From assembly GCA_947644305.1 (NCBI GenBank), contig CANRYS010000008.1, forward strand, positions 1 through 64,000: a stretch of DNA of 64,000 bases. Direction: 5' to 3'. Every line of letters starts with the position of its first letter. Position 1 is the stretch's first letter. Under the pieces are notes generated by a model, which ran no database searches, was not told the origin of the DNA, and saw only the letters and a program-made list of their open reading frames with translations. Origin of the DNA: an uncultured Roseburia sp. (GTDB taxonomy: Bacteria > Bacillota > Clostridia > Lachnospirales > Lachnospiraceae). Both the position numbers and the translations under genes were made by a program. Positions 7,616 to 32,342 of the stretch are shown here, piece after piece.

Positions 7616-10141
7616 TTAATGATTTTTTTCAAGCATGGTTAATCTTTTATCTAAACTCGCATTTTCTTCATATAATCTTTGAATCATCATGGTATTCAAG
7701 GCAATGAATTCTTCGTATCGAAGAGAGTAAAGATAAACAGGATTTCCCTCGTCATCAAACACGGGATTTTCTTCTATAGTACCGTCTTCGCCTTCTATTC
7801 GTTCTTTTTTCTGATCTTTACAGAAACCGGCAAATTCTAAAGATGAAAGTCCACATATACTCATAGCATCCTCTACATCTTGAGATATAAATCCTACATG
7901 TGTTCTACCTGATTCTCCGTCTTTAAACAGATATGACTTTGGCTGGAGCAACAGGAAGAACTTACAATATCTATCGTCGGTTGACAGGTTATTTATATTT
8001 TTCTTAAGGTTTCTGTCGGAGGTCGTATTGAGGGATGTAGAACACCATATTTCTTTCCAGCGGTAATAAGATGTTCCAAGTGTAAACGCATTTGCAGTTG
8101 TTGGACATATATCTGACCTTATATAAGATTGTAAACATATACCATTATATCCTCGGAGTTCTAACATTCTATTGTTTACTTCAATTCTTTCAGAATAATT
8201 ATCAAATTGTAATATGGAATTAGAAGTTATTGCTACATTCGAATCAATTTTAACTCCACTTTTAGCATATATCTTTAAGTGATCATCGCTATCTTCATAA
8301 AAATAAACGTAGTCTCCATCGCCAAAGTTTAATTTGCTCCCATAATTTGCACCACTCGGTTTTAATCTTAAATTTTTTGCACTGATGTTATGATCACTGA
8401 ATTTAAAATCTGTACCATTAAATTGAAGCGATCCAGTAATCGATTCATCTCCTTTTTTCATGAAGACAAGACTTGTATCGCCATTGATGCCTTTTAATAC
8501 CAATGCGCCTGCATGATTTCTATCACCGATAACGATATCATCACCTATGTTTATCCACGAATTATTTGGAAATGCAACAGAACCAGAAAATGATGCATTC
8601 ATAAGATTCATTATGTTATTCGATATATTGAGGAAGGTTGCGATGGCACCATTATGATTTTGATATAATCTTAATCCATCTCTATATGTATCAATCTCAT
8701 ATTTAATCGAACTATCAGTTGTTTTTAGCTCAATGTTTCCTCCTTCTATATCGACATACAAGTCAACGCCAGCGTTTGGATATGTGCTATTCCTGACTTG
8801 TAGATGATGATCACCATAATTGGCATATGATTTTGTAATGACACCTCCAGAAAGAGGCAGATATGAGTGAGTGTGGTTTGCTGATGATTTTCCGTCAATT
8901 AGATCTTTCAATATTTTTCCTTGTTTTGCTGACAGTGGTTTATTAACAGCAGTGGAAACCAGATTGTCTATAATATCCGCTACGTTGACCTTATTTCTGG
9001 TGATTCCATCAATCAGGCCTTTATTATTTTTTATATATGCCACGATTTCGCTTAACTGGTCGAGAGTTGTATCATCACTGTCTGCCAGTGTATTCAACCT
9101 TGTAGTCAATGTAGAGATTAGATTTCTAATATCATTATGGCAGTTATTGGAAGAATTGTGGGACTTTAGGTCTCCATCTACAGATACAGCCTTATCGTAA
9201 GCAGTTTTTACGGAATTAGCAGTAGCAGCAGTAGAAACGGAGTTACTAGTTACGCTGTTGGTAAGCTGGGTGATGCCTTTTGATGTTGTTGTAGCCTGAT
9301 ACAATTTATCACTAGGAATTTTTATGTTTGTATCAAGTCCAGGTACACCGCCCGCCACATCTTTGTCTTCTGTTAGAACAAAATGATGAGAATCCAACTT
9401 GTTTTGTAGATCCGTGGCTTTGGCATTGGCGTTAGTCGCTGCATTGTTTGCACTTTCTGCCGCACTATTAGCATTATCAGTGGCACGATTAGCGCTTTGT
9501 ATGGCAGCATTTGTGTTTCTTATTGCAGTTTCTGTATCCTCCTGCCTTTGATTCTCCTGTCTCTGTCTGTTCTCTTCGTTTGATATCCTGACTGATTCAT
9601 TGTCTGTCCTTTGTTTTTCATTATTTGAAACAGTTTCTTCCAGTGCATTCATTTCATCGATTTCATCTCTGGCAGAGTTTATAAGTTGTGCAAGGGTGCT
9701 CCCTTCATCGGTTTCCACAACATCTATTTCATCAAATACTTCTTTTGGAATATACAATATAAATGGATCTGTAGATGCAATTTCTTCTTCTTCGTTTGGA
9801 GCTTTATTGTTTTTTTGAATCTCATTTTCATCCTGGATTCTGTTGTAAATGCCAACGTCCAGTCTGCATCTTCCGGGGCAGCTTAGTACATAATTATGCA
9901 ATTCTGCATGCAGAAGCCCTTTTTTCCTATCCGTTATCTCTACATTATAAAAGATAGGTTTTCCATCTGTTCTCCTTCCACGGAGATATACAAATGCCGT
10001 TTCAGGCAATTCATATTCCTGTCCATTGTTTGTAACTGTTATATTGATATCCCTTGTTAGTCTGTCATTTTGTCTGGCATTTATGACATTATGTGATATT
10101 TCCACCAGATCAAGAGATAATTGCTGTATTATTTTATTCAT
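7616..10141 (-). CDS. Tail fibre / receptor-binding protein: BppU-like N-terminus and S74 chaperone C-terminus
   Basis: The product is 841 aa. Residues 1-115 resemble the BppU baseplate N-terminal domain that docks fibres on siphophage baseplates. A helical Asn/Ala/Glu-rich stalk follows at about 165-245, then a beta-rich shaft. The C-terminus has the peptidase S74 intramolecular chaperone: TTSDRNLKKNI, then SGRTHVGFISQDVEDAM. In known cases this domain drives trimerisation and cuts itself off. A final coiled tail (RLYEENASLDKRLTMLEK) is present, unlike in its neighbour. Ends are nearly identical to those of the protein at 10347-12815 while the middles differ. The start is ATG behind GAGGAGG. 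Confidence 0.8.
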   Translation of the reverse strand: MNKIIQQLSLDLVEISHNVINARQNDRLTRDINITVTNNGQEYELPETAFVYLRGRRTDGKPIFYNVEITDRKKGLLHAELHNYVLSCPGRCRLDVGIYNRIQDENEIQKNNKAPNEEEEIASTDPFILYIPKEVFDEIDVVETDEGSTLAQLINSARDEIDEMNALEETVSNNEKQRTDNESVRISNEENRQRQENQRQEDTETAIRNTNAAIQSANRATDNANSAAESANNAATNANAKATDLQNKLDSHHFVLTEDKDVAGGVPGLDTNIKIPSDKLYQATTTSKGITQLTNSVTSNSVSTAATANSVKTAYDKAVSVDGDLKSHNSSNNCHNDIRNLISTLTTRLNTLADSDDTTLDQLSEIVAYIKNNKGLIDGITRNKVNVADIIDNLVSTAVNKPLSAKQGKILKDLIDGKSSANHTHSYLPLSGGVITKSYANYGDHHLQVRNSTYPNAGVDLYVDIEGGNIELKTTDSSIKYEIDTYRDGLRLYQNHNGAIATFLNISNNIMNLMNASFSGSVAFPNNSWINIGDDIVIGDRNHAGALVLKGINGDTSLVFMKKGDESITGSLQFNGTDFKFSDHNISAKNLRLKPSGANYGSKLNFGDGDYVYFYEDSDDHLKIYAKSGVKIDSNVAITSNSILQFDNYSERIEVNNRMLELRGYNGICLQSYIRSDICPTTANAFTLGTSYYRWKEIWCSTSLNTTSDRNLKKNINNLSTDDRYCKFFLLLQPKSYLFKDGESGRTHVGFISQDVEDAMSICGLSSLEFAGFCKDQKKERIEGEDGTIEENPVFDDEGNPVYLYSLRYEEFIALNTMMIQRLYEENASLDKRLTMLEKNH

Positions 10142-10346
10142 ATATCCTCCTCGTATTATTTAGTTATATTTATGCGTATGTGAAACGCCACAAGCCGCAT
10201 AAATACGGAATTTTTAGTTGCAAAAATACAAATAACTCCTCACTGGATATGGTATAATAGAGTTGTTTAGAAACCATTAACCAACATCCAGGAAAGGAGT
10301 TATTCTAATACTTATGATACCATATACCATCCGTCTTCTTCGGGAA
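10142..10346. other. Intergenic segment between fibre genes, possible insertion-sequence scar
   Basis: The leftward part carries only the ribosome binding site of the 10141 gene. The rest contains rightward TATAAT (10252-10257) and AAAGGAG followed by a short ATG frame at 10314, which runs antisense into the 3' end of the other fibre gene. This is how a truncated transposase start would look, but no transposase can be identified and no terminal repeats were found. Confidence 0.3.
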
Positions 10347-12815
10347 CTAAATTCCAATTTTTTCGCATATTTTCTGAATCATCATGGTATTCAACGCAAT
10401 AAATTCTTCATATCGAAGGGAGTAAACATAAACGGGATTTCCCTTATCATCAAACACAGGATTTTCTTCTATATTACCTTCTTCGTCTTCTATTCGTTCT
10501 ATTTTCTGATCTTTACAGAAGCCGGCAAATTCTAAAGATGAAAGTCCGCATATATTCATAGCATCTTCTACATCCTGGGAAATGAAGCCTACATGCGTTC
10601 TGCCTGATTCTCCATCTTTAAATAGGTAAGATTTAGGCTGGAGCAACAGGAAGAACTTACAATATCTATCATCGGCTGACAGTTTATTTATGTTCTTCTT
10701 AAGGTTTTTGTCGGAGGTTGTATTGAGTGATGTCGAACACCATATTTCTTTCCAACGCGAACTGGAAGCTCCAATCGTAAGTGTATTACTTTGAGGGCGC
10801 AAATTACTATTTATACCGTTATTTACTTTTAAATATGCAGTTTCTACACTGTAGAAATTGCTTTCTAAAAAGTTTGCATAAGTCGAACTTATACTTGTTC
10901 TAGTTATTTTTGTTTGTATAGGCTGATTAACAGATAATCCAAATACGATTTCACCTGTCTTAGTAATAGTCAAAGTTTGAACGTTATATGTTTGATCAGT
11001 TGTGACTTCAAAAGTTCCACCAAATGTTACATCATTATTATCTATCGAAATGCCATTTTTAGCATATATCTTTAAATGATCATCGCTATCCTCATGAAAG
11101 TAAACATAATCTCCATCGCCAAAGTTTAATTTAGATCCATAGTTTGAGCTCTTTGATTTTAATCTTAGATTAGTACCATATATGTCATAAAATGGTGCCG
11201 CCAGAGTTCCAATGCTTATGTTGTGACCACGCAGAGGTTTTATAATACCACCCCCAAAGGACAATCCTTTACGATCACTAAAAGTTTGACAGTTGGAATA
11301 GATAAATACACTGTTATCCGATGCAAGATATAAATTTTCACCGTTCTTTACATAGGATTCATTACTCTCTAGATTATTTGGAAGTGATGCGATTAAATCA
11401 ACTTCTCCAGAACAGACATAAGTGTTTCCGCCACATCCTAACCGGAGTTCAGCGCCATAACCGGAACCATCACCAAAGGTCTGCAAAACGGTCCATGTTC
11501 GGTTTTCAGGATCTACCATTTTAAATGTATTTGCACTAATTAGATTAGCATGGACAGAAGCAGGTGTTACACCGTCTTGTTTTCTAAACCGGAACATACC
11601 ATCATTTCCCAATAGTAATGTTGCTGCATATGCATTTGCCCAGTGAAATCCTATAGATGGAGCGTATCCTATATCCATATTCTTATTAGAATTCTGATTG
11701 TTTTCCCTTATTTCTAATGCAGATAATCTAAATCTATTTGCCGGATTATCTGTATATTGTCCATAGAATATTCCTGTACCTGCAACATTTTGAGTTCCAT
11801 CAAAAGTTTTTCCGAAAATAGTACGCGGGGTAGCTAATTTGGTAGTCTCTCCTGCGTCTCTCCATGCAGGATTACCACTGGCATCGGTTTTCCAAACTTT
11901 GTCTGCCTGACCGCTGCCGGATGCCACATATCCTCCGCTGGTAGAAGAGTTGGCATATAATTTGTTATTTGGAATTTTGGAATTAGAATCGAGTCCAGGG
12001 ACGCCGCCTGCCTTATCTTTGTCTTCTGTTAGAACAAAATGATGGGAATCTAGTTTGTTCTGTAAATCATTGGCCTTTTCTTCTGCTTGACTGGCGGCAG
12101 TATTCGCATTTCTTACTGCTTCGGCTGTGTCACTTTGCCGTTTGGTTTCATTTGATATGCGAAGGTTTTCTGCACTGATTCGATCTCTCTCCGCATTATT
12201 TCTGGTCATTTCAGCAGTAGAACGTGTTTTTTCAATGGTAGCTCTTGATATTTCATTGGCTATGCGGATGCGTTCTTCGGCTGATCGATTAGCCTCGTTA
12301 AACTGTCTCTCAGATTCATTGGCGGCCACCTGGGCTTCCAGATGATTCATTTCATCGATTTCATCCCTGGCAGTATTTATAAGCTGTGACAAAGTACTTC
12401 CTTCGTCGGATTCAACGACATCTACCTCATTAATTACTTCTTCTGGAATATATAATATAAAGGGTTCTGTTGAGGCAATTTCATCCTCCTTATTTTCTGT
12501 TTCACCCTGAACCCTGTTATAGATGCCGACATCCAGTCTGCATCTGCCGGGACAGGATAAAATATAGTCGTGTATATCTATATGAATCTGCCCCTTTTTA
12601 CTGTTTATGATCTCTACAGGATAGAAGATCGGTTTCTCATCTGTCCGTTTTCCGCGGAGATATATAAATGACGTTTCAGGAAGTTCGTATTCCTGCCCAT
12701 TGTTTGTAATTGTTATATTGATATCCCTTGTCAGTCTGTCGTTTTGTCTGGCATTTATGACATTATGGCAAATCTCTACCAGATCAAGGGATAACTGCTG
12801 TGTTATTTTATTCAT
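10347..12815 (-). CDS. Tail fibre paralogue with BppU-like and S74 domains, shortened C-terminus
   Basis: The product is 822 aa. The N-terminus (1-110) is close to that of the 7616-10141 protein and BppU-like. A long helical stalk rich in repeats such as NEANRSAEERIRIANEISRA spans about 165-245. The shaft differs from the paralogue. The C-terminal S74 domain has TTSDKNLKKNI and GRTHVGFISQDVEDAM. After NTMMIQK the sequence changes to ICEKIGI and stops, missing about 15 residues of the terminal coil seen in the sister. ATG 12815 is chosen because GGAGG is 5 nt upstream and the sister gene starts at the same residue. It follows the Tal gene by 31 bp. Confidence 0.8.
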   Translation of the reverse strand: MNKITQQLSLDLVEICHNVINARQNDRLTRDINITITNNGQEYELPETSFIYLRGKRTDEKPIFYPVEIINSKKGQIHIDIHDYILSCPGRCRLDVGIYNRVQGETENKEDEIASTEPFILYIPEEVINEVDVVESDEGSTLSQLINTARDEIDEMNHLEAQVAANESERQFNEANRSAEERIRIANEISRATIEKTRSTAEMTRNNAERDRISAENLRISNETKRQSDTAEAVRNANTAASQAEEKANDLQNKLDSHHFVLTEDKDKAGGVPGLDSNSKIPNNKLYANSSTSGGYVASGSGQADKVWKTDASGNPAWRDAGETTKLATPRTIFGKTFDGTQNVAGTGIFYGQYTDNPANRFRLSALEIRENNQNSNKNMDIGYAPSIGFHWANAYAATLLLGNDGMFRFRKQDGVTPASVHANLISANTFKMVDPENRTWTVLQTFGDGSGYGAELRLGCGGNTYVCSGEVDLIASLPNNLESNESYVKNGENLYLASDNSVFIYSNCQTFSDRKGLSFGGGIIKPLRGHNISIGTLAAPFYDIYGTNLRLKSKSSNYGSKLNFGDGDYVYFHEDSDDHLKIYAKNGISIDNNDVTFGGTFEVTTDQTYNVQTLTITKTGEIVFGLSVNQPIQTKITRTSISSTYANFLESNFYSVETAYLKVNNGINSNLRPQSNTLTIGASSSRWKEIWCSTSLNTTSDKNLKKNINKLSADDRYCKFFLLLQPKSYLFKDGESGRTHVGFISQDVEDAMNICGLSSLEFAGFCKDQKIERIEDEEGNIEENPVFDDKGNPVYVYSLRYEEFIALNTMMIQKICEKIGI

Positions 12816-12846
12816 ATAGCCTCCTGTACTAATATACAATTTTATG

Positions 12847-15800: not shown

Positions 15801-16836
15801 ATTCTATCTCAAGTAATTTTTCATAGGGTTCCCTGTTGTTATTAAATTGCGTTATGTATTCATCATATTTTTTCTGGAGTTTTGAGGAGAAGAGTTGTTT
15901 TGTTTCTGGAGAAAACATATACAGCTTTTTATTTCCTGAGGGCAGAATCCCCTCTACGGTATCTGTGATAATATCATCCCCGCCCTCAATAATAAAGCAG
16001 TTCTTCATATTTCCATCGGGTGTGAGAGTGATCTCATCAGAAAGATTATCTGTTCCGACAGCTATGTTGGTGTCTTCACCGATTCCGCCAATATCCGTAC
16101 TTTCACAGTCCTGACAGACGCCGTTGATAACGTTGCGGCTTCTGCAGTCTTTACAGTATTGCGCATCGTATATATTAACAATCCGTTCCACCATTCCGTC
16201 TTCATTTTTTCTAACGACAATGTCAAAAATACAGCCAATCTCCTGCGCGATTTCTGAAAAACAGGAGATAATGTCCTTCCTGGAAAAGCTAAAGGTTCTC
16301 TGGATATTTTTGATGGTATCCTCCACTGTACCCACGGTATAATTGGGAGCATAGGTTAATATTCTGTGTATCAGGCTGTGCTCTTCCTTGTCTGAATACA
16401 AAACAGTAGAAATATATGGTTCTGTTGGGTGTAATTTTCCGAAGTCTTGCATATCGCTGTTTGTGTTGCATTCCAGTGTACAGAATAATTGGGATAATTC
16501 AGATTCTCCCAGTGAATTTCCATTTAAGGTTTTGATGGAAGTGTAGGTATCGTTTACTGTTGGCGATACTTCAAAATATCCAAAACCCCGGACGAATACG
16601 ACGGAATAGTCTTTTATTTTGTGATATAAAGAGTTTTCATGGTCGGATACATTTTTTGGCGTACTAAAGGAGATCTCATCCGCTCCGTTCAGCACACATT
16701 TGATCCGCAGATCTCCTACGGGATAAATCTCGCCTATTTTGTTTAGCTGTCTGTCGCAAAGGAAGACCTGGGGCTGGACAATCTCACCTGTAATTTCGTC
16801 AACTTTAAAAGTTAGTTTGTTTGGATTGAAACTCAT
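12847..16836 (-). CDS. Tal-like tail-associated baseplate protein with two zinc-ribbon motifs
   Basis: The product is 1329 aa and begins MSFNPNKL. Position right after the Dit gene, large size and a beta-rich N-terminal part (1-400) fit the Tal/prophage-tail-lysin hub that closes the tip of non-contractile tails. Two CxxC...CxxC ribbons stand out near 228-250 (YCKDC, then CQDC) and 637-660 (YCKNC, then CNQC). The region after about 900 (ARDIDVQIDEHGILLRKYD, then YGVWADVLVGDLIVGEKL) resembles siphophage tail-fibre stems. No peptidase motif was recognised. It overlaps the Dit stop codon by 1 nt. Confidence 0.7.
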   Translation of the reverse strand: MSFNPNKLTFKVDEITGEIVQPQVFLCDRQLNKIGEIYPVGDLRIKCVLNGADEISFSTPKNVSDHENSLYHKIKDYSVVFVRGFGYFEVSPTVNDTYTSIKTLNGNSLGESELSQLFCTLECNTNSDMQDFGKLHPTEPYISTVLYSDKEEHSLIHRILTYAPNYTVGTVEDTIKNIQRTFSFSRKDIISCFSEIAQEIGCIFDIVVRKNEDGMVERIVNIYDAQYCKDCRSRNVINGVCQDCESTDIGGIGEDTNIAVGTDNLSDEITLTPDGNMKNCFIIEGGDDIITDTVEGILPSGNKKLYMFSPETKQLFSSKLQKKYDEYITQFNNNREPYEKLLEIEYGIHDLILYLQSGRMPTPETPDTPEDTTSDTDSRLRREVDHIIDKYNSHFPQGLGHTENSDTISRNGIVRQVLSLFVHDGYMIRQENGNYDNEKLRWTGDIVVYKIRENSSQAIIHVSDNSSTIEYSDTKEQDTSSFCIKFSEDYTTYLKQMVAITTKNYEFIEEQGLNQSKEWQKYSLHRLYSYESGYQACIETLEEIICKSDTSAIIDEAESIKEKYYNRKIEISDYMTRLEDIIFHLCSYFGNFDIIPSSVKSEPTTFTRADSAFMNMVHYIRYGTWAGESENEITDHPIYCKNCGSKNVTLTGCNQCKTANIATYSELAQIVYENYILNHTPLETQRKQIRENNDLKEFLKDPETKEDFYKELCSFIREDVYTNSNFISDGLSNSELILKARELILKAEQELAKACISQHTLSGNIYSFAAYSCLSKKDFPISGVYDGFKLGNFMRYFADDGKTYKLRLSSEEFSWTDSGAELNVEFTDVIEYSNGGISDLASLVQTMGNLATSFDSVKKQAEQGVEANHTFQKIKNEGLQSALSNVLNARDIDVQIDEHGILLRKYDYELDDYDQYQMKLINRNIVMTKNNWKDASMAIGLGRYNGEPVYGVWADVLVGDLIVGEKLVIKNEDEHGVSSVTIDKNGITIKNGSISWTDVNPPKISQIDGLSNELSLIKATTDTVKNSIPEKIRELDQKVARYLTNGGSTSIGENYMISPYIGGGYLNIVNGDKQVVIDPSNTSGTGYIFQVKNQGKTMVGISADGEAKFEGKIKSTQGDIGGWKISDKYIYLDGTKDKNEYRFEINSENCSITSRNTSKEEYYHESGTIYTKLHHETINIESGALKLSYKTVWDGNDYPLSENYLLLTRSSLVIKSGDETCCSLNTSGFKEHDMYLGELYGVVKTGENSLTGGNNPWELQRADFGVVYDSPPLVNVMFYGTMPDHENIVFSEYIKNSKGGYTGFVYAVRTENAERNYSTKWWAVGNVRP

Positions 16837-17663
16837 TATACAGGAACCCCCTTTCTGATCTCTCTAATGTATATGGTTACATTGCATCGTTCATTAGAGG
16901 CAATTACATTTTCGTATTGATTAAAATCTGAATAGAGTTCGAGAAAAACATGATTAAAGTCATTTATCAATCCGTCATGAACCATAGAAGAGCAGATATT
17001 TTTATGCCGATCTAGTTCTATGATCTCGCCCTGTTTACAGTTATTAATTTCGACGTTTATTGTTTTGGTTTTGTTTTCATCCTGATCCATAGAAAATGTA
17101 TTTGTAATGCACAATAGATCGTAGTTTCCTAACACTTCAATTCTGACTAAGTCTGGCAGTATGCCGCCGTCTTCGTCGGAATAATTATATATGCTGCAGG
17201 CATTTACTCCATTTAGATTCAAAGTATGTTCTTTACGTTCTGAATAACCCCAAGGCGCATCGCATGTGGCCTCGATCTCCAGTCCCCGTATGACGCCGCC
17301 AATCTCATATTTCTGTACTTTTAGCGTGCAGTTATAGAACACATTGTCCCAGCCAGTCTGGTCAAATCGGAGATAGCGATAATCTTTACGGACCAGCCAC
17401 CTCATGATCTTAGCAAGCTCTCTGGGAGTTATTTCCATATCCTCACCCCAACAGTTGTATTTGACCACCTGAAAAGAAAAGGTGAGGGGTGTTTCATAGG
17501 TAACACCGGTTCGAATAAAACGATTTCTTTTTGGTGCTTTTACCGTATTGATCGTTATTTCATTGCCGACCGGTTTCGCTCCGGTGCTGTTTCCACTAAA
17601 GCTACAAAGATAGAGTCCGAAGACAGAGCTTTTTATTCCGTCAAATTCAAACTGTGTAATCAT
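16836..17663 (-). CDS. Distal tail protein (Dit-like)
   Basis: The product is 275 aa, near the usual Dit length. The N-terminal half fits the siphophage Dit fold that makes the ring between tail tube and baseplate hub: FEFDGIKSSVFGLYL, then GVTYETPLTFSFQVV, then RWLVRKDYRYLRFDQ, ending with IEATCDAPWGYSE. It lies between the tape-measure and Tal genes, the standard Dit position. The start is ATG 17663 with only a weak GGTGAT upstream. Confidence 0.75.
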   Translation of the reverse strand: MITQFEFDGIKSSVFGLYLCSFSGNSTGAKPVGNEITINTVKAPKRNRFIRTGVTYETPLTFSFQVVKYNCWGEDMEITPRELAKIMRWLVRKDYRYLRFDQTGWDNVFYNCTLKVQKYEIGGVIRGLEIEATCDAPWGYSERKEHTLNLNGVNACSIYNYSDEDGGILPDLVRIEVLGNYDLLCITNTFSMDQDENKTKTINVEINNCKQGEIIELDRHKNICSSMVHDGLINDFNHVFLELYSDFNQYENVIASNERCNVTIYIREIRKGVPV

Positions 17664-17687
17664 CTGGTCATCACCAACTTTCTTTTG

Positions 17688-17975
17688 CTATATTTTCTCA
17701 CACGTTTTCTTCTGAAGCTCGGAGAGTTCTTTTTTCAATCCAATTATAATTTTATCTACGGCTTTCTCGGAAGATTTTTGTTTCTGAATTAGTTTTTTTG
17801 AATCCTGGATCAATCTTTCATATTCTTTTTTATAGGTATTGAGTAGCTCCGCGGAACGTTTCATATCTTTCACAGCGTAATCTCTCTCTTTTTCCAGTTG
17901 GGAGATTCTTTTTGCCAGCCGGTCATTTTCTTCTTTGAGTAGTTTTTTGTATTTTTTTGAGTCTGTTAATATCAT
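17688..17975 (-). CDS. Small coiled-coil protein of the tail module
   Basis: The product is 95 aa, almost entirely charged helix with heptad-like spacing (LLKEENDRLAKRISQLEKE, then LKKELSELQKK). No family was recognised. It sits between the tape measure and Dit, so it may be a tail assembly helper or minor tail protein. ATG is behind AAAGGA. Confidence 0.55.
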   Translation of the reverse strand: MILTDSKKYKKLLKEENDRLAKRISQLEKERDYAVKDMKRSAELLNTYKKEYERLIQDSKKLIQKQKSSEKAVDKIIIGLKKELSELQKKTCEKI

Positions 17976-24270: not shown

Positions 24271-24825
24271 CCTGTATTTAGAAAAAGACTCCCATTTGCT
24301 TCTGACAAATTATTAATTGAAGAAAAGAGTTTTAAGTTAGTAAATTGGCTCACTTTCGCGAGGTTCAGACTGTATATCACAGCTACATACAATTACGCCT
24401 GTATGCGGCCAAACCTTGTCAGTCGTTGAGGGCGTGACATATTATTTGAAAATAACTTAGCCATTATCCCTGCTTTCAGCATAAAATGTATTTTCATGCC
24501 TACCTATGGATCGCCCATTCTTTTAATATTTCATAGGAGTTATCTTATATAGATAAAGCCAGAAGTCTATGTAAATATAAAATCTTAAATCACACGTAGG
24601 CTCTCGCCATATGCATACTATATATTTTTTTTTCTGTCTTTCGACACCATTGCCGTTTATCGTTTCCGATTCCGTTTTGGGGTATATATAGTCTTTAGGG
24701 TTTCCAGCATATTCGGTTTTTATAATTTTCATTAAAGGTATCCGCTTATTTTAAGTGGCTACGCTCCCGTCCGTTGGCTGCATGGCGTTATTATGCAGCT
24801 TTAGAGGGGTGGGCGCAGTACATTC
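24271..24825 (-). ncRNA. Group I intron (self-splicing type) in the tape-measure gene
   Basis: On the minus strand the 555-nt segment shows group I core marks: a P3/P4-like AATATGCTGGAAACCCTAAA (from 24713), an R element GCCCTCAACGACTG (ending near 24420) and an S element GATATACAGTCTGAACC (24378-24362). GACTG and CAGTC form P7. GCATAC/GTATGT gives a P8-like hairpin between R and S. Near the 5' end GTACTG is the exact complement of the first six bases of exon 2 (CAGTAC), i.e. P10, and the next bases can pair with the end of exon 1 with a U.G at the splice site. Removing 24271-24825 joins both exons in frame. No homing endonuclease is present. Confidence 0.88.
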
Positions 24826-25000
24826 ACCACTGGAATATTGTACATTCACCAATACCATTTTGACTTAATAATTTTGAAATTTCAGAAGTATCTACGCCTA
24901 TCTTGATATTGAGGTTCTTGATACTATCTAGCTGCTTTTGTATATTTGAAATAGATTTGGGAGTCAGTTGTGCGTCAATTCCCAATTTGAGGTCACTCAT
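24826..25000 (-). CDS. Tail tape-measure protein, exon 1
   Basis: This exon encodes residues 1-58 plus the first base of codon 59. MSDLKLGIDAQLTPKSISNI and the following amphipathic helix look like the N-terminus of clostridial tape-measure proteins. Read without splicing it stops at a TGA (24824-24826) whose T is the last exon base. Joined to exon 2 it gives one 2125-aa protein. ATG 25000 has AAAGGAG about 11 nt upstream. The last part contains GGTGAATGTAC, repeated 24 bp later across the splice site. Confidence 0.8.
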
Positions 25001-25030
25001 ATTTTAAAACATCTCCTTTCTTTTGATTAG

Positions 25031-25065: not shown

Positions 25066-25074
25066 TCTAGTGTA

Positions 25075-25227
25075 TCATCCCTTTTTTTCTGCTTCCATCA
25101 GTTGTTCCAGGATGGCTGTAATATTCTTGATCGAAGAGATCACTTCTGCTGCATTGACCATAAGTACTTTCTTCGAGTCTTTGTATAGCTTTTTTAGTTT
25201 GAAATATTCCATCATAGATTTGAACAT
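25075..25227 (-). CDS. Small tail-module protein, 50 aa
   Basis: The frame begins MFKSMMEYFKLKKLYKDSKK behind GGGAGA and is mostly amphipathic helix. No family was recognised. Compact packing between the 126-aa gene and the tape-measure gene supports a real gene. The short size and place just before the tape measure would suit a tail assembly helper; this is inference. Confidence 0.55.
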   Translation of the reverse strand: MFKSMMEYFKLKKLYKDSKKVLMVNAAEVISSIKNITAILEQLMEAEKKG

Positions 25228-25284
25228 AAAAATCTCCCTTCTTATGCTTTATTTCGTACACAAACAATTCGTTGAGGTGGGCAG

Positions 25285-25665
25285 TTATTCTTCCATAATC
25301 GGATACAATCCGATTAGGTGCTCTGCTCTGACTCCCTTATTGAATACATCTGTTACCTTTAAACGTTCTACATTTACGGTTACCTGGCTGTTGATGATCT
25401 GAATCAAACTGTCGTTAAACTGTTTGATGGCATCTTTATCCTCTTTTGGGATCTGGATGCTGCCATCCTCAGCTTCTTTGCCATATTCCATGATTTTTTC
25501 ATTTCGTATTGTCTCAAAGTTTGCCACGTGAGTTTCAGCAGATTTCATGATCCCCAGCAATTTAAATTTGAACAGAGGATCTACCTTTGCCTTATTATCA
25601 TCAATGATAGATTTCAGGGTCTGATTGAGATTTAATACCTCACCAAGTGTCAATGTAATATCCAT
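25285..25665 (-). CDS. Phage-type small protein between amidase and tape measure
   Basis: The product is 126 aa from ATG 25665, which follows AAGGAG; a start at 25701 lacks one. It is helical and charged (LTLGEVLNLNQTLKSIID, then FNDSLIQIINSQVTVNVERL). It recalls small clostridial phage proteins of the DUF1617 sort found near tail genes, but I am not sure of the family. It lies 13 bp after the amidase and 57 bp before the 50-aa gene. Confidence 0.6.
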   Translation of the reverse strand: MDITLTLGEVLNLNQTLKSIIDDNKAKVDPLFKFKLLGIMKSAETHVANFETIRNEKIMEYGKEAEDGSIQIPKEDKDAIKQFNDSLIQIINSQVTVNVERLKVTDVFNKGVRAEHLIGLYPIMEE

Positions 25666-25678
25666 AAGATCATTCTCC

Positions 25679-26227
25679 TTATTTTGTTTTTTGGATTCCA
25701 CTGGCGATTAATTTTGCCAGTTTTCTACGGTTTGCGAGCCCTTTTCCCTTCTTGTAATCCGATTTGCTTGTACAGAAGAAGGTTTCGATCAGAATGGCAG
25801 GAGGCTTTGTCTGATTTAATATATAGAGATTGTCTCTCTGGAGGATTCCTCTATTCTTAAATACAGAGGACAGTTGCTTTTGGACAGCAGCGGCATACTT
25901 TTTGCCTGTAGTTGACTTATATAGAACCTCCGTGCCCTCAGCGGCAGGACTGGCTGCGTTTAAGTGAAGCTCGATCACAAGGTCGTAAATGTCTTTGTTG
26001 ATCTGGTTCAATTTGTAATTTTTTTCTTCTGAACTGGAGATAAACTTTTTTTCTGGGCACAGGATTCTGTCTACCTTGTGGCCCTTTTTTGTCAGTTCCG
26101 TTTTTACCTGTTTGGAAAATGCCCTGCACCACCTATATTCGTTGCAGCCGCCATATTTTTTTCCATCTGCACTTGTATAATAGCCATTTTTCAATCTTGA
26201 GTGGCCGACGGTTAATGCTATTTTCAT
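25679..26227 (-). CDS. N-acetylmuramoyl-L-alanine amidase (Amidase_3), endolysin
   Basis: The product is 182 aa, a bare catalytic domain with no signal peptide or wall-binding domain. Zinc ligands of the family are visible: His in LTVGHSRLKNG, Glu in CNEYRW, His in IELHLNAAS, plus the catalytic Glu in AILIETFFC. It cleaves the amide between MurNAc and the peptide. Its frame overlaps the preceding gene by 4 nt, in a lysis set with the holin. In a tail particle this would release particles from the producer cell. Confidence 0.9.
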   Translation of the reverse strand: MKIALTVGHSRLKNGYYTSADGKKYGGCNEYRWCRAFSKQVKTELTKKGHKVDRILCPEKKFISSSEEKNYKLNQINKDIYDLVIELHLNAASPAAEGTEVLYKSTTGKKYAAAVQKQLSSVFKNRGILQRDNLYILNQTKPPAILIETFFCTSKSDYKKGKGLANRRKLAKLIASGIQKTK

Positions 26228-26697
26228 TGTATTTCACCTCGATTAAATCCGTTTTTTAATTTTTCTTTGTAAATGTCGTTGATGACTTCCATACTCATCT
26301 GTACCTGTCCGTTGGTCATGTTGTTTTCTTCTAATATTTTTTCGTATTTTTCATAAGTTTTCAGAATGTGATCAAAGGGTTCCTTGCTAAATTCACCTCC
26401 GCCTGAAAGGGCGGAGGCAAAATGGAGTATTTCGTATCGCATATCATCGATCTGTTTGTCGATAAACATTTCTGTCAGTTTTTTTACATCTCTTTTTAAT
26501 TCATTCAATTCCTGTGTATTTTCAGTGAGCAGGAGATGATCCTTTTCATTGTTTTGGACCCATTTGACAGGGCGTCCGATAAGCTTAGAAAATTTTTCTA
26601 TAATTTCGCAGGCGAATATGATACTGGAAATAATGATAAAAGCAGAAAGTAGGAATAGAGAGAAGTCTATGTGAGATAAGTTATTGAATATATCCAT
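26224..26697 (-). CDS. Lysis-associated membrane protein, one N-terminal TM segment
   Basis: The product is 157 aa. A hydrophobic segment at about 12-31 (FSLFLLSAFIIISSIIFACE) is followed by a cytoplasmic-type helical domain containing MTNGQVQMSMEVINDIY, a stretch I associate with phage proteins encoded beside holins. It probably helps the holin or anchors at the membrane; function is not known. Start ATG 26697. It overlaps the amidase start (ATGA). Confidence 0.6.
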   Translation of the reverse strand: MDIFNNLSHIDFSLFLLSAFIIISSIIFACEIIEKFSKLIGRPVKWVQNNEKDHLLLTENTQELNELKRDVKKLTEMFIDKQIDDMRYEILHFASALSGGGEFSKEPFDHILKTYEKYEKILEENNMTNGQVQMSMEVINDIYKEKLKNGFNRGEIQ

Positions 26698-26718
26698 ATA
26701 TATCGCCTCATTTGACTT

Positions 26719-27021
26719 TTATTTTGTTTCGATGCCCAGGATTTTTCCCAGAGATCCCAGGGCTTTGCCTACATATAATAGAATGGCTGAGGTCATCGCG
26801 AAGGATGGGGTGATGCCGATGGAAGACAGATCCGCCGCTTCGAAACAGAAGGCAGAACCGATAAATGTCACCGCCACGGTCAATGCTTTTGCGATTCCGG
26901 TGATCAGGATAGTTAGGTTAAAATGGATCTTCTGCGTACCGATGCTGTAATACATGCCGGTGGCAATATTGATCCCCACGGCAACGGCAAGGACCGGTAG
27001 CATTTGTAAGATTTCACTCAT
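26719..27021 (-). CDS. Phage holin-like protein
   Basis: The product is 100 aa with three likely membrane segments (about 5-25, 35-60 and 70-92) and a charged C-terminus (KALGSLGKILGIETK). Size, topology and position two genes before the amidase fit a holin that lets the endolysin reach the wall. The start ATG follows the previous stop by 4 nt. Confidence 0.75.
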   Translation of the reverse strand: MSEILQMLPVLAVAVGINIATGMYYSIGTQKIHFNLTILITGIAKALTVAVTFIGSAFCFEAADLSSIGITPSFAMTSAILLYVGKALGSLGKILGIETK

Positions 27022-27025
27022 AGTA

Positions 27026-27334
27026 TCACGGCTCCTTTTGTGGAGGCATTGGAATGTCGTCGTCTTCCTCTGATAAGATCTCCTGAATCACAGCCCTTAT
27101 CGGCGGATGGAAGTCTTCCAGACCGGACAGATCACATTTTTCCAATTCCCTTTTTGCCGTTTCCTTATCCTGGGTTAGAGTATATCCATGGACTGCCATA
27201 TAGATTTTATAATGTCCCACCGTATCTGTGACGGCCCGCCAGGACTTGAAGTATTTTTGTTGCTGGCACGTATTGCATATATGATAACCAGCGCCGCAAA
27301 TGGCGCAGTGGGCATTTATTTTTTTATCACTCAT
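27026..27334 (-). CDS. Small zinc-ribbon phage protein
   Basis: The product is 102 aa. A CxxC...CxxC site (HCAICGAGYHICNTC) opens the protein, followed by a helical domain (WRAVTDTVGHYKIYMAVHGY) and an acidic tail. Similar short ribbon proteins occur among structural genes of Firmicutes phages; their role is unclear. ATG 27334 is 9 nt from GAGGTG; the GTG at 27346 would overlap that site. Confidence 0.6.
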   Translation of the reverse strand: MSDKKINAHCAICGAGYHICNTCQQQKYFKSWRAVTDTVGHYKIYMAVHGYTLTQDKETAKRELEKCDLSGLEDFHPPIRAVIQEILSEEDDDIPMPPQKEP

Positions 27335-27350
27335 ATGTTTTGTCACCTCG

Positions 27351-27382
27351 AAAAAAATGGCGGTTGTATTTCAAACCGCCAT
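27351..27382 (-). terminator. Intrinsic terminator after the tail-tube gene
   Basis: A perfect 9-bp stem ATGGCGGTT/AACCGCCAT with an 8-nt loop is followed on the minus strand by seven T. It sits immediately after the 265-aa structural gene, as expected when that product is needed in excess. Confidence 0.85.
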
Positions 27383-27389
27383 AATGGGA

Positions 27390-28187
27390 TTATTCTTCTG
27401 CTACAAAGATGTCAAACAGACGTGCCTTGCTGTCGCAGTAAGATTTCTGGAGTTTGTACTCAGCGGCATGCTTGCCCTCGGAAGAGAGGCTGATCTCCAC
27501 CGATTCCGGATTGATCTGAGCCCGTGGAACAGAGATAACACCGGCGTATACCAGGTTGGTGTCGCAAGGATCGTGGAAGATCGCGTGGATCAGAAGAGAT
27601 TTGACTTCCGGTACACCGTCAGTTTTCTTTGTGATCTTCACCGCGTTTTCACTTTCTCGCTCATACTGGACGAAGGCGCGTCCAGTCACACCGGCCGGAA
27701 GAGTAATGGTTTTATTTGCTGCATCCAATGTGAATTTTCCTGCTGATGCGGTAGCGGATACTTCGTATTTTTCTCCAAAGGTATTGTTATCATTGATAAC
27801 TCGGACATGCTTGATCTCTGCACCCTCTGGTCCTACTGGAACATAGGACAGTTTAACGGTACCATCGGCTTCAATATCCAATGTCTCCGACACAGGAACC
27901 TTAAGCTTCTCATTAGCAGTTCCGGCTGTCTTTTCTGCGCCCAACTGGGAAGCAGCGAGGTCAAGAGAGAAGAGACTGTTGGTAAAGCTGAATGTACCGG
28001 TCTGAGAATTGTAGAAGGTTACGATCTCAGAACCCATAGCATCGGTCACCTGTGTGCCCTCTGCGGATGTTTTCAGGCTTGGCTCCTCGATCTGCGTGTA
28101 ACGACCTGTCAGCTCTTTTGTAGAGGGATCATACTCCTCAACGGCTCTGATTTTTTCAAGAATAAGTTCATTTGGATTAAAAGACAT
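27390..28187 (-). CDS. Probable major tail tube / structural protein
   Basis: The product is 265 aa, beta-rich and soluble. Landmarks are GTQVTDAMGSEIVTFYNSQT near 45-65, FTNSLFSLDLAASQLG, and a C-terminal VEISLSSEGKHAAEYKLQ. The pattern fits phage tail tube proteins with an Ig-like insert (ITLPAGVTGRAFVQYERE). It begins MSFNPNEL, like the Tal protein. It is flanked by a good ribosome binding site (AAGGAGG before ATG 28187) and a strong terminator, consistent with high expression. A capsid role is less likely because no other head gene is present. Confidence 0.6.
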   Translation of the reverse strand: MSFNPNELILEKIRAVEEYDPSTKELTGRYTQIEEPSLKTSAEGTQVTDAMGSEIVTFYNSQTGTFSFTNSLFSLDLAASQLGAEKTAGTANEKLKVPVSETLDIEADGTVKLSYVPVGPEGAEIKHVRVINDNNTFGEKYEVSATASAGKFTLDAANKTITLPAGVTGRAFVQYERESENAVKITKKTDGVPEVKSLLIHAIFHDPCDTNLVYAGVISVPRAQINPESVEISLSSEGKHAAEYKLQKSYCDSKARLFDIFVAEE

Positions 28188-28236
28188 AGATAGTTCCTCC
28201 TTAAAATTATATATTTTTAGGCGGGCGGGGAAAACT

Positions 28237-28989
28237 TTATTCCAGTTCTCCAAGCCAGTCTAATTGCTTGTTGGATATTTCTTTGAGGTTGATTCCGAAT
28301 CCGGAATATCCACTCTGCAATAGTAAATTTGCATTTTTTATTTTTGAGACTCGTCTTACAGAATCCATGAATGCATTGATTTTCATATTCCAAACCTCGG
28401 AGTGGTTATATTTGAAACCTTCACAATTCACCATGGCAGAAATCATATTTTTTAATTGTGAATGGTATTCTTTGTTTTTGTTTCTTTCATATTCATCTCT
28501 TGCATCTTCAATCAGGATCATTTTGGTGGACTCGTTGGCAGGCAGTTTGTTATCTCTCTGTATCATATGGACCTGACAGATATAATTCATCATCCGATCG
28601 TAGGTGGATTCATCTATGATAACAGGCTGGTTTTCTATATCCTGATATAAGAACACAGATCCATTTTCTTTATGCTGCATGATCTGAAACCGATTGAGAT
28701 CCAGATTGCCAAACAGGATGGAAGTTTTTTTCTGTGGATATAATTTGCATAGGGTGCTGTAAAACAGTTCAAATGGAGTGATGGATGTGTAGTCAACTCC
28801 CATTTTCCACAACTGGTATTTCATGGATTGCGGCGTCGCAGTCAGTTGATAGACCATCGAATAGTAATCCTGTTCTCCGTATTGGCAAATCTCTTCCAGT
28901 GTCGCCTGATGGATCACAATGTGATCTGATACGATATAATCCTGTCCCCGGTATATTTTTAATTCATCGTTTTCTTGCGTCGCAATCAC
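28237..28989 (-). CDS. Phage-type protein upstream of the tail tube, 250 aa
   Basis: I do not recognise it with certainty. The GTG start at 28989 follows AGGAAAGG; an in-frame TAG lies just upstream. The text (LKIYRGQDYIVSDHIVIHQA, then TPFELFYSTLCKLYP, then FGNLDLNRFQIM) is soluble and mixed alpha/beta. Comparable proteins occur near tail genes of clostridial phages, possibly as a minor tail or assembly protein. It is separated from the polymerase gene by 145 bp that may hold a promoter. Confidence 0.5.
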   Translation of the reverse strand: MIATQENDELKIYRGQDYIVSDHIVIHQATLEEICQYGEQDYYSMVYQLTATPQSMKYQLWKMGVDYTSITPFELFYSTLCKLYPQKKTSILFGNLDLNRFQIMQHKENGSVFLYQDIENQPVIIDESTYDRMMNYICQVHMIQRDNKLPANESTKMILIEDARDEYERNKNKEYHSQLKNMISAMVNCEGFKYNHSEVWNMKINAFMDSVRRVSKIKNANLLLQSGYSGFGINLKEISNKQLDWLGELE

Positions 28990-29047
28990 CAGCCTTTCCT
29001 ATTTGGTTGTACAAGTGGGGGAACGAGAGCTCTTCTTTTCCCTTCAT
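28964..29047 (-). CDS. Possible 27-aa leader ORF overlapping the 250-aa gene
   Basis: ATG 29047 follows AGGTGAT and the frame (MKGKEELSFPHLYNQIGKAG) ends 26 nt inside the 250-aa gene in another frame. It could couple translation or feed a +1 shift at CGA-TGA. Support is only the ribosome binding site and the overlap. Confidence 0.25.
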   Translation of the reverse strand: MKGKEELSFPHLYNQIGKAGDCDARKR

Positions 29048-29134
29048 AGATCACCTAACAATTTGTAAAATAGAACATATTTTCGGGTGTTTTTGGTATG
29101 ATCCTGGCGTTGAATGTACAAAAAAACATCAAAA

Positions 29135-31756
29135 TTAGCAATGATTAGAGAAAATCTTTAATAAGTTTCCGCTGTTTACCTGAAATAAAACTTTTAATAG
29201 GAGAGATCTGTTCATATCTAACTGCTTTTTTAATTGTCTATTCCGGTTTACATTGCATGTTATGAGAAAGGCCCGGTCAATGAGCCAGGACATAAGCCCA
29301 ATGTAGGAATCCGATAAATATACTTTGCGGATACTGGAGACCATATCTTCAAAATCCTTTCTTAATAATAAGTAATCATCGCAGCGATCGGAGATATTTT
29401 CGCCACTTGTATTGTATTGATATAGGTGAAGGGAATATTTGGCGATCAGATCCTCTACTTTTTTTGATTTCCTACGGTCTTTTTCCAGTTCGAATTTTTT
29501 GTAAAAATAGGACATGGGAAGAGTGGCAGCAGTGTTGCGAAAACGGTTTAATCTGAGATCGTACAGGCAGTTCATGGGGCAGTGCAGTCTGGGATTGATT
29601 TTCTCAGGGTTTATATTGGGGTGAATCAGTTTCCAGAAGTTTGGATATTTATGTCTTTGTATTTCCATATCTTCTTTGATCCGCTGGATCTCATCTGTGA
29701 GCTGTATGTCAAAGCAACGTTTGGCGTTGTCGATGGCGACTTGCGCCAGCACCGACAGGATACAAACATAGTTCGTGTATTTTGAATCGGTAAAATTGCA
29801 GGCATAGGTCTGGGCGATCTGAGCGAGATTACTCGACTCCCCAATATCTCTCTGGCAGTTTGCCAGGCGGTTGTCGAGCATTGCAAAATCATCCATAGTG
29901 TTCCGATATACATTTTTTTCCTTTGGAATGTTATTGACGATGGTTGGATGGTCGGCATAACATTTCCTTGCATGTTCTACGATATCTACCTGATCGGTGC
30001 AGTAACCGCTGTCAGAATCCTGGTCTGAGCCGTTGTTTCTGTCCTGAAAATCGGTACCGATCATATTGACAGCGAGGATGAGTTTCCCAAATCGGAAATA
30101 TTTTTTCAGTTTTTCGTGACAGGTATTATGTAAATAGGTCAAATTGTTTTTTGAATTGAAGGGACTTCGAAAGAACGCCAGGTGGCGATCCACCTCAAAC
30201 CGTTCCGTATAACACTGGATTGTGCCCGTTTCTGTCTGAAAGGTATCGTCATCGTCGACGCTGTCCTTATTTCCTGTGGCGCCATATAACAACATGGCAT
30301 ATGGAGAGCCAACGATAACAAGATTTTCTGCATTCTGAATGAGCTTTCCTGTTTTCATGTTTCTGACATAGGTTTTTATGATCGCTTTCCTGCGTTCTCT
30401 GAAATATTCGCTTCTTGTAAATTCCCTGTTTTGTTTGCTCAGGGCGACCAATACTTCGTGGTCATTGGAAAAATTACTATTTTTTTGAAGGTATTCCAGG
30501 AAAAATTCATCGTCCCGTTTTAATCGTTCCACATAGGTGACGCTTTCCCTAGTTACATTGTCCATGATGCTCTCATCCAGGGAATTAACCATCTGATAAC
30601 TCATTTTTTGTACGTCTCCCAGTTTACTTTTATGTGCTGTTTTTACAATGCCAAACAGATTATGGTTTTCATTTACTTTTTTACACCAATCATCATAGGA
30701 TTTGTTGAACTTTAACCATTTCATGGAGTGATTGGTGGTGATGACTTCGATGTCTTTTACAAAATGTTCCCTGCCAAACATATCTTTTACTGTGGCGTCA
30801 GGGTAGTACTCACCAAAATAATCCTGAAAAAATGTTTGGATGTTGCTGCAAAAGGCAGCCATCTTGCAAAAATGGTGTCTTAGTAGAATGTAACCATCTG
30901 CCCATTCAGGGAAAATACTGCTGTCGATCAGTGCCTGACCATCAAATAAGGTGTTTTTCAATTCATAGTGATCGATGCGTCTAGCATGGCAGTGCTTGTC
31001 CTGATCCGTTTCGATGCTGATTACATTTGTAATAAAAGACTTATCAATGTCCTCTAGGATCAGAATGTTTCTGGGATTTATCTTGATTCGATCCACGATG
31101 GTGCTGGATACTAGGGGAGCATAGGCGCTGAGCTCAAGAATTTGTGCGTTGTTTTCAGGGCATTTAATTCCCATATACAGAAAATTCTGTGCTTTTTTAT
31201 GTAATTTGTCTCTTATAAACATACAAGATCCCTTTTTGGCTTTTCCCGTGCTGCGGTAGAGCATTTTATAGTGGATCACTTCACGCTTTTTTATGGTTCC
31301 ATCTCGTTTTCGTGAGATATATTCCACATCCACGCCATCGTTATAAAGTAGCCTTCTGATTTCTTCTTTGGAGAGTCTCTCATATTTTTCTTTGTTTTCA
31401 CGGGCAAAGGCGATACATTCCATGATCCACTTACGCTTTTTCATCTTTTTATCCATTTCATTTTGATTGTTCCGAGATTTTGCCTCCTTATATTCCAGTC
31501 GTGCCTTTTTTGCTGTTTTTTTCAGATGTTCCATCTCCTGTTCATAGGATCTTGTGCCAAAGTTAAATTCAAGGCAGATGATATCCCGTGTGGATTCATC
31601 TTTCAAAAGCTTTAGTCCATTTTCTTTTAAATAATCGCAAAACAGACTATTGGTAAACATCGCATTGGTTACCTCATAGTGGCTGCGCAAGCCTCTGTTG
31701 TATTCCAGCAGGGTACTGGCTTCTATATTCTTGATTCGTATGCCGTATTCACTCAT
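29135..31756 (-). CDS. Putative single-chain two-barrel RNA polymerase (YonO/RdRP-like)
   Basis: The product is 873 aa. The catalytic signature of two-double-psi-barrel polymerases appears as GSDQDSDSGY at 576-585, with D578, D580 and D582 in a DxDxD array (DbDGD in eukaryotic RdRPs, DFDGD in RNAP beta-prime). An upstream FFRSPFNSKNN with R530 and a downstream AIDNAKRCFDI with D676 sit where RdRP-family enzymes keep their RxP and AVDxxK elements. The Gly of the classical motif is Ser here. SPbeta YonO, of this superfamily, is a DNA-dependent RNA polymerase for phage genes. Its place at the head of the tail series suggests it transcribes that module. The start overlaps the preceding gene by 8 nt, behind GAAGGAGG. 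Confidence 0.65.
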   Translation of the reverse strand: MSEYGIRIKNIEASTLLEYNRGLRSHYEVTNAMFTNSLFCDYLKENGLKLLKDESTRDIICLEFNFGTRSYEQEMEHLKKTAKKARLEYKEAKSRNNQNEMDKKMKKRKWIMECIAFARENKEKYERLSKEEIRRLLYNDGVDVEYISRKRDGTIKKREVIHYKMLYRSTGKAKKGSCMFIRDKLHKKAQNFLYMGIKCPENNAQILELSAYAPLVSSTIVDRIKINPRNILILEDIDKSFITNVISIETDQDKHCHARRIDHYELKNTLFDGQALIDSSIFPEWADGYILLRHHFCKMAAFCSNIQTFFQDYFGEYYPDATVKDMFGREHFVKDIEVITTNHSMKWLKFNKSYDDWCKKVNENHNLFGIVKTAHKSKLGDVQKMSYQMVNSLDESIMDNVTRESVTYVERLKRDDEFFLEYLQKNSNFSNDHEVLVALSKQNREFTRSEYFRERRKAIIKTYVRNMKTGKLIQNAENLVIVGSPYAMLLYGATGNKDSVDDDDTFQTETGTIQCYTERFEVDRHLAFFRSPFNSKNNLTYLHNTCHEKLKKYFRFGKLILAVNMIGTDFQDRNNGSDQDSDSGYCTDQVDIVEHARKCYADHPTIVNNIPKEKNVYRNTMDDFAMLDNRLANCQRDIGESSNLAQIAQTYACNFTDSKYTNYVCILSVLAQVAIDNAKRCFDIQLTDEIQRIKEDMEIQRHKYPNFWKLIHPNINPEKINPRLHCPMNCLYDLRLNRFRNTAATLPMSYFYKKFELEKDRRKSKKVEDLIAKYSLHLYQYNTSGENISDRCDDYLLLRKDFEDMVSSIRKVYLSDSYIGLMSWLIDRAFLITCNVNRNRQLKKQLDMNRSLLLKVLFQVNSGNLLKIFSNHC

Positions 31757-32342
31757 TGGTAAATCCTCCTTCCTTGTGAAGATTGGAAGAGTCTAACCAG
31801 ACTTCCCAGTATCCGTCGCAATATTTAGTTTTTAAATCATGAAAATGTAATTTTGCCAGATCCATGATCTGATAGATGTAGTAGCAATAATCCACCTGTC
31901 CAGCACGGATGTTTCGCAGAATATCGTTGATAAAGGTACAGTAGGACTGCCAGTTTGTACAGCCATCGTAGGTACGACAGTTCTCGGTCCATCCTCTAGC
32001 TGATTCTTTTGAAAATCTGCCTCCGAGTTTTTGTACCTTTTTGTTATAAGGTGTGATAAATAATTTACGGATTTCAAATTCTTTCTGCCATGTTTCATCG
32101 GTGAGATGTTCCGCTGGGCGGCCATCTGTATTAGATATCAATTGCATTTTTTTTAATTCTTCCAGATTCATACGTTTGTATTTTTGCTCCTTTTCTGTCC
32201 TGTTTTTTCTTTTTTCCAGTGTTTGTTGGAGATGGATTGCCTCCATCTGATTCTGTATTCTCCTTTTGTTTGGATAGGAAGTATTAAAGTCTTCCATTTC
32301 TATGTATCCTCCAAAGACAGAATGATTTGTGATCATATTCAT
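31749..32342 (-). CDS. Unknown protein preceding the polymerase, 197 aa
   Basis: The first part (20-65) is charged helix (KRKNRTEKEQKYKRMNLEEL); the second is mixed with many aromatic and Cys residues (WTENCRTYDGCTNWQSYCTF). No family was recognised. ATG 32342 is behind AAAGGAG and the 3' end overlaps the polymerase gene, so the two are translationally coupled. It could be a polymerase partner, for example a promoter-recognition or DNA-binding subunit; this rests only on position. Confidence 0.6.
   Translation of the reverse strand: MNMITNHSVFGGYIEMEDFNTSYPNKRRIQNQMEAIHLQQTLEKRKNRTEKEQKYKRMNLEELKKMQLISNTDGRPAEHLTDETWQKEFEIRKLFITPYNKKVQKLGGRFSKESARGWTENCRTYDGCTNWQSYCTFINDILRNIRAGQVDYCYYIYQIMDLAKLHFHDLKTKYCDGYWEVWLDSSNLHKEGGFTNE

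Follow-up and report, generated by a model that had tools for sequence, protein, structure and literature searches.

The closest described relatives of the system considered here are F-type tailocins, non-contractile phage tails made without heads. According to the published outlines of two such systems, the F-pyocins, whose ancestry is common with that of phage lambda (PMC12090994), and rhizoviticin (PMC10811719) are both headless F-type tails of Gram-negative producers. F-type tailocins are sparsely documented in Gram-positive bacteria. The titles and abstract openings that we covered, a scope outside which subscription papers and preprints fall, include none on tailocins with a YonO-type RNA polymerase or on tailocins of Lachnospiraceae. 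We analysed a window of 64,000 nucleotides from an uncultured Roseburia sp. of the Lachnospiraceae (assembly GCA_947644305.1, contig CANRYS010000008.1, positions 1 to 64,000). Positions 7616 to 32342, with the control genes to their right, probably form a chromosomal, headless tail locus of the SPbeta type, which would belong to a domesticated family of F-type tailocins under a two-step cascade of SOS response, sigma factor and private polymerase. A headless F-type tailocin had been proposed here from the sequence (the original prediction), and both the absence of recognised head genes and the recurrence of a headless gene order in relatives support that candidate.

All open reading frames (ORFs) of the original prediction were found at the positions given. 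Read leftward on the minus strand (32342 to 7616), the series encodes an HxFGG-motif protein, an RNA polymerase, a YomV-family protein, the tail tube, lysis proteins, the tape measure, Dit, a Tal-like protein and fibres. Divergent from this series, from about 32517, are genes for a sigma factor and then a DUF262 protein, a pair whose membership in the system had been overlooked. Among 20 ORFs (7018 to 35019) scanned with Pfam and PHROGs, no family named as terminase, portal, protease, major head protein, sheath or integrase was matched, and no head, packaging or replication gene was recognised, in agreement with the original prediction. The terminase, portal, capsid and integrase that mark an SPbeta-like prophage are all unrecognised in these ORFs. 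The same scan recovers a sheathless, non-contractile tail, comprising tube, tape measure, Dit, Tal-like protein and two fibres that each carry BppU_N and Peptidase_S74, together with a strong Amidase_3 match, backed by endolysin PHROGs, for the amidase. These assignments had been predicted and stand; that of the holin is weaker and is taken up below. In NCBIfam (10 ORFs), the sole match was the sigma factor, under its cut-off.

Several matches carry the PHROGs label 'head and packaging' and could mislead. They include phrog_2729 on the tube ORF (27390-28253, 4e-9), phrog_23208 on fibre 1 (1e-5) and phrog_1224 on 7018-7515, which is described as an endolysin. A further such match on 31749-32342 (0.021) and a 'head morphogenesis' match on 17688-17975 (0.049) are at chance level. 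The product of 27390-28253 is a homologue of SPbeta YomU whose predicted model matches tail tubes. Judged by that model, it is a tail tube despite the phrog_2729 label, and a capsid behind the label 'virion structural protein' is ruled out. We also considered YomV as a disguised capsid; its helical model is without a match in the PDB, which leaves its role unassigned and a capsid not excluded.

The gene order was then compared among relatives. Loci were fetched with a profile of seven polymerases, as the best 80 of 101 genome loci and the best 80 of 216 viral loci, and proportions among them are not prevalences because the lists are the best matches to the polymerase of the window. Once window, genus and phage loci were added, polymerase ORFs of 650 amino acids or more were present in 156 loci, duplicates included. 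Class calls resting on 10-kb flanks assign 48 to a headless order, 71 to a phage order and none to both, leaving 37 unclassified (L067, with two polymerase ORFs of which one is in headless order, among them). In the headless order, YomV and tube come directly after the polymerase, with the first tube gene 0.1-4.3 kb downstream; in the phage order the polymerase precedes exonuclease, terminase or portal. SPbeta-type terL and portal models matched none of the 48 headless loci (39 after subtraction of nine presumed duplicates), and terminases or portals of other kinds beyond the window could escape these models. From this comparison, we regard the polymerase-YomV-tube order as a family trait and the ancestor of the locus as SPbeta-type.

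We also looked for the same module inside complete prophages, one of the findings that the original prediction had named as refuting it. Among 24 whole viral or phage records, 22 have the tube. One, L125, is itself headless, its tube and polymerase being 2.3 kb apart. The remaining 21 have the tube 13.3-30.4 kb downstream (19 records) or at the opposite record end (two), and terminase and portal follow the polymerase. Such related tubes in viral records, and related polymerases in phage-order loci of genomes from the same group of bacteria, are compatible with a satellite or gene-transfer-type element that gives tails to the heads of helper phages. We consider this very improbable, given that no packaging or integrase gene was recognised in the 20 ORFs, that the locus has its own lysis genes and chromosomal sites common to relatives, and that its Tal shares no more than 22-46% identity with phage Tal across the matched segments, with a match in 11 of the 24 records. 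The homologue in the 176-kb phage MT835469 is 34% identical over 45%, the hhalign match to SPbeta YomG is weak (E 5e-4, probability 31.5), and Dit as a lone query found no viral relative.

Within the genus, genomes G024, G017 and G001 carry the same locus beside the same chromosomal genes as the window (purL-like/maf as left neighbours in G024; recN as the right neighbour in both G017 and G001), and the G025 locus sits on the purL/maf side. For 16 locus genes, the ratio of nonsynonymous to synonymous divergence (dN/dS) is 0.03-0.26, with dS of 0.18-0.88 (1.21 for the tape measure; recN gives 0.49 and 0.73 for comparison), values that indicate purifying selection on these tail and control genes. 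Strong sigma matches (E < 1e-30) occur in 10 of 39 genus genomes. Four of these, G005, G006, G018 and G038, escaped the polymerase search and were found by sigma. All of them show the headless order, with tube, YomV, sigma and DUF262 present, and none has a match to the terminase and portal models of the SPbeta type. Their polymerases have diverged strongly (profile 2e-21 to 4e-21 in three; that of G018 is known by BLAST alone, the profile having no match at E 1e-3). Adding the sigma-less G014, G015 and G034 to the ten, the headless locus is present in 13 of the 39 genomes. A decaying SPbeta-like prophage remnant, vanishing after loss of its head genes, would fit the clear phage ancestry and the split tape-measure gene described below. 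It is quite improbable in view of the purifying selection on all 16 compared genes, the recurrence of the headless order with divergent sequences, the 13 genomes that carry it and the retained regulatory boxes.

The sigma gene has a promoter-like TTGACA (32451)/TATAAT (32474) with a LexA-like box in the 17-bp spacer and another 32 bp upstream. Its start is more likely the ATG at 32517, behind GGAGG, than that at 32478. In the same genome, GAACAGATGTTC precedes the start of a recA-like gene, itself recognised by sequence, by slightly less than 50 bp. Genome-wide, 43 occurrences of the bare pattern compare with 31 of a control, so it is weak evidence and box position carries the weight. A strict LexA box lies within 300 bp upstream of 25 of 34 sigma genes, against a background of 0.055 per kb. 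Once four duplicates and a single phage-order locus are set aside, a LexA-like box precedes 21 of the 29 remaining sigma genes, which are non-redundant and headless or unclassified, and also those of all four further genus members (G005, G006, G018, G038). The predicted SOS control of the sigma factor is putative, in the form of LexA-like boxes seen in sequence at its promoter and in relatives.

Of 33 headless loci, 22 have a sigma gene within the flanks that were fetched, versus 1 of 56 phage-order loci. We rejected the sigma/DUF262 pair as tailocin-specific, since sigma matches occur in 7 of the 24 viral records, headless L125 included; one of these seven has a box, and in two the start is poorly placed. 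Sigma and DUF262 are fused in one ORF in G051/L074, L051, L097, L104, L111, L125 and phage MT835469, and because of these fusions the two very likely act together. In sigma-less G034, the divergent gene encodes an MrpR-type repressor (PF22822, 5e-12), which means that the family uses two or more kinds of switch; no sigma gene lies in the flanks of L061 and L063, two headless-order loci of Paenibacillus. A cultured carrier of a headless-order locus with a sigma gene is Cuneatibacter caecimuris DSM 29486 (L055). At the sigma/DUF262 junction of the window (33038-33282), an 80-bp unit is repeated 3.1 times, each unit with ribosome-binding-site-like GGAGGAGG and ATG.

The predicted two-barrel polymerase is of the YonO type by homology (phrog_8308; 23% identity to SPbeta YonO) and by a catalytic aspartate triad (D578/D580/D582) that is invariant across 7 aligned sequences. 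It is not tailocin-specific, because phages carry it as well. YonO transcribes the late genes of SPbeta, as its published account states (PMC5467207), and by analogy the polymerase here would transcribe the tail operon. The HxFGG motif family upstream of the polymerase had seemed a tailocin-specific marker when sought by regular expression (14 of 34 headless versus 0 of 67 phage-order loci); the idea was refuted because a profile detects it in 12 of 63 phage-order loci, besides 20 of 34 headless ones. Identity of this protein with YonP was rejected by eye. In 13 of the best 80 viral loci (L152-L154, L158-L160, L162-L164, L167, L168, L170, L171) the polymerase match spans about 3.4-3.8 kb rather than 2.6 kb, and in L014 it is in three pieces, as if these long or broken genes were interrupted by introns. 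A polymerase relative in Enterocloster phage PMBT24 (OQ326496) is annotated as an RNA-dependent RNA polymerase.

We propose the following cascade. Upon DNA damage, LexA would leave the sigma promoter. The sigma factor and its DUF262 partner would then have host RNA polymerase read the gene pair ending in the YonO-type polymerase, a step suggested by the divergent gene order and the sigma-DUF262 fusions, and the YonO-type polymerase would read the tail operon. Tube, tape measure, Dit, Tal and the two BppU/S74 fibres would assemble into a flexible tail with a length of very approximately 300 nm. This length is scaled from SPbeta, whose tape measure has about 2285 amino acids and whose tail is given as 320 nm in a published description (PMC8270828); the 2062-2120 residues here would correspond to about 290-300 nm. 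Holin and amidase would lyse the producer, and the freed tails might attach to closely related bacteria and kill them. We infer both the formation of particles and their killing action. The two fibre genes (7616-12815), against one in G024, reflect fibre duplication and variation, and the tandem BppU/S74 fibres resemble variable receptor-binding proteins. They argue against tails made for a non-killing use (host-tissue contact, cargo delivery or release of cell contents), as does the lack of any toxin family at cut-off in the 20 ORFs. Such a use would accord with the lysis genes and with sub-threshold Pfam matches of 31749-32342 to FokI_dom_2 (0.016) and Colicin-DNase (0.035), which we judged to be chance; overall we hold it to be very improbable.

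The original prediction overlooked that the tape-measure gene is split, with an N-terminal fragment at 24824-25000 and an insert at about 24281-24860. Close copies of the insert are present in G024 and G025, though the G025 tape measure is only about 35% identical. It has no Rfam match in the window, nor in the loci of 12 relatives; by eye it carries putative group I-like core motifs. In the same region, 21 of 48 headless loci (duplicates included; among them L073, L097, L098 and L051) have up to three small antisense zinc-ribbon ORFs, and G005 has five profile matches. These are candidate immunity or mobile genes. The corresponding count of 0 of 71 phage-order loci was not used, because those loci mostly end before the tape-measure gene (tube 13-30 kb off) and the comparison is biased.

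Several observations weigh against the tailocin interpretation. The N-terminus of the tape measure is lost unless the insert is spliced, and the holin match in Pfam is weak (E 0.028). A strict LexA box is absent at 8 of the 29 sigma genes, and the flank lacks a sigma gene in 11 of 33 headless loci. Moreover, a review of clostridial tailocins, in its published outline, reports that Gram-positive tailocin prophages tend to retain capsid genes (PMC10538166), a pattern from which a headless locus departs.

The history of the locus is mosaic. On a FastTree polymerase tree (102 rows: 39 headless, 63 phage order; long branches flagged), well supported branches require at least 12 switches of order, and parsimony gives 17. 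An IQ-TREE analysis of the window clade (51 rows) requires at least 5 (parsimony 6), and the tube tree (56 rows) has 6 forced switches (parsimony 8). Across 42 headless loci, identities of YomV and tube correlate closely (r 0.92, 860 pairs), those of sigma and DUF262 moderately (0.66, 291 pairs), and those of polymerase with tube or sigma little (0.23 and 0.27), in pairs that are not independent. The window and L098 share 64% identity in tube and 68% in YomV versus 24% in polymerase; with G025, the window shares 62% in sigma and 74% in DUF262 versus, again, 24% in polymerase. Taken together, these patterns indicate that exchange affects the control pair, the polymerase and the tail genes independently of each other, and repeated polymerase exchange with phages is the simplest account of the trees. 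Alternatively, tailocins may have been born repeatedly from phages, with later recombination of tails. Since the same polymerase lineages occur many times on the headless and phage sides, tailocin origin is testable in sequence. A broader and rather doubtful proposal is of a widespread tailocin family built from three exchangeable units (SOS sigma/DUF262 switch, private polymerase and tail), in which passing SPbeta-like phages repeatedly supply a new polymerase while tail and switch stay. Polymerase and promoter would then be a changeable private key by which the weapon is protected from being set off or shut down by resident or infecting phages, and the antisense zinc-ribbon genes could be the matching immunity.

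Features of the tail locus and its flanks in the window, with supporting matches (values after family names are E-values; percentages are identities)
Feature	Position	Strand	Evidence
Small YHYH/peptidoglycan-binding protein, left flank	7018..7515	-	PG_binding_1 4.7e-15; paralogue 35211-35720
Receptor-binding fibre 2, BppU_N ... S74 chaperone	7616..10141	-	Pfam/PHROGs; dN/dS 0.24 vs G024
Receptor-binding fibre 1, BppU_N ... S74	10347..12815	-	Pfam/PHROGs; start likely internal to ORF 10347-13001
Tal-like tail-associated protein, 1329 aa	12847..16836	-	follows Dit; homologue in MT835469; weak YomG hhalign
Dit-like distal tail protein, DUF6558	16836..17663	-	Pfam 1e-35, 2.2e-18
Small coiled-coil protein	17688..17975	-	ORF; 93% in G024
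Tape-measure protein, main ORF, 2062 aa	18068..24256	-	phrog_4211 6e-15; SPbeta tape-measure match; dN/dS 0.26
Intron-like insert within tape-measure gene	about 24281..24860 (approximate)	-	similar copies in G024, G025
Tape-measure N-terminal fragment, reading on into insert	24824..25000	-	69% in G024, 84% in G017
Conserved 50-aa protein	25075..25227	-	88-100% in four relatives; without Pfam match
Conserved tail-module protein, 138 aa	25285..25701	-	dN/dS 0.04-0.09
N-acetylmuramoyl-L-alanine amidase (endolysin)	25679..26227	-	Amidase_3 3e-25; phrog_435 8e-55
Membrane-anchored protein, lysis/tail module	26224..26697	-	dN/dS 0.03-0.06
Holin-like membrane protein (weak)	26719..27021	-	Phage_holin_4_1 0.028; hydrophobic segments
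106-aa protein with CxxC pairs	27026..27346	-	dN/dS 0.10-0.16
Major tail tube protein (predicted), SPbeta YomU family	27390..28187 (scanned as 27390-28253)	-	
YomV-family protein	28237..28989	-	phrog_4051 4e-13; hhalign to YomV probability 92
YonO-type single-chain RNA polymerase, 873 aa, DQDSD motif	29135..31756	-	phrog_8308 1e-89
HxFGG...DFN N-terminal-motif protein, upstream of polymerase	31749..32342	-	motif family at polymerase loci
Two LexA-like boxes	32430..32473	+	32430 AAACAAATGTTC; 32462 GAACGTTTGTTC
Sigma-70-like factor, regions 2 and 4, inferred start	32517..33077	+	Sigma70_r2 7e-6; TIGR02937 1.3e-8 (under its cut-off)
DUF262/GmrSD_N-like sigma partner	33270..34712	+	GmrSD_N 2e-6 (under its cut-off); sigma fusions in relatives
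Small conserved gene 3' of DUF262	34645..35019	+	86% in G017, 78% in G001

Secreted YHYH/peptidoglycan-binding paralogues lie at both edges of the locus (7018-7515 and 35211-35720).

The locus family suggests antibacterial particles in the shape of tails, which exchange components with living phages. The recurrence of such a family in gut Lachnospiraceae would mean unrecognised strain-specific killing in the gut, and also a YonO-type RNA polymerase kept and used by hosts outside phages.

Among known systems, the late operon of SPbeta and SPR (YonO, YomV, YomU, YomI) has genes homologous to those of the window. In SPbeta, the terminase, portal and further virion genes lie between polymerase and tube, and these are missing from the window. 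The faecal phage MT835469 and relatives in IMG/VR have related polymerases, tubes and Tal proteins, and MT835469 has the fused sigma-DUF262. Unlike the window, this phage has terminase and portal, a tube 27 kb from the polymerase, and a sigma gene at which no LexA box was found. Its record MT835469.1 (L219, L220) holds two tube homologues about 31 kb apart. Clostridial UviA, a small sigma factor of the TcdR group, controls the bacteriocin BCN5 according to its published description (PMC4031146), and by description only it can be set beside the sigma factor of the window. The Listeria monocins, also F-type tailocins, were compared at the level of tube fold only, and the ancestor here is of the SPbeta type. 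Their control relies on a CI-like repressor and the MpaR anti-repressor, whereas the window has a sigma/DUF262 pair and a private polymerase, and the control genes differ from known examples just as the original prediction held.

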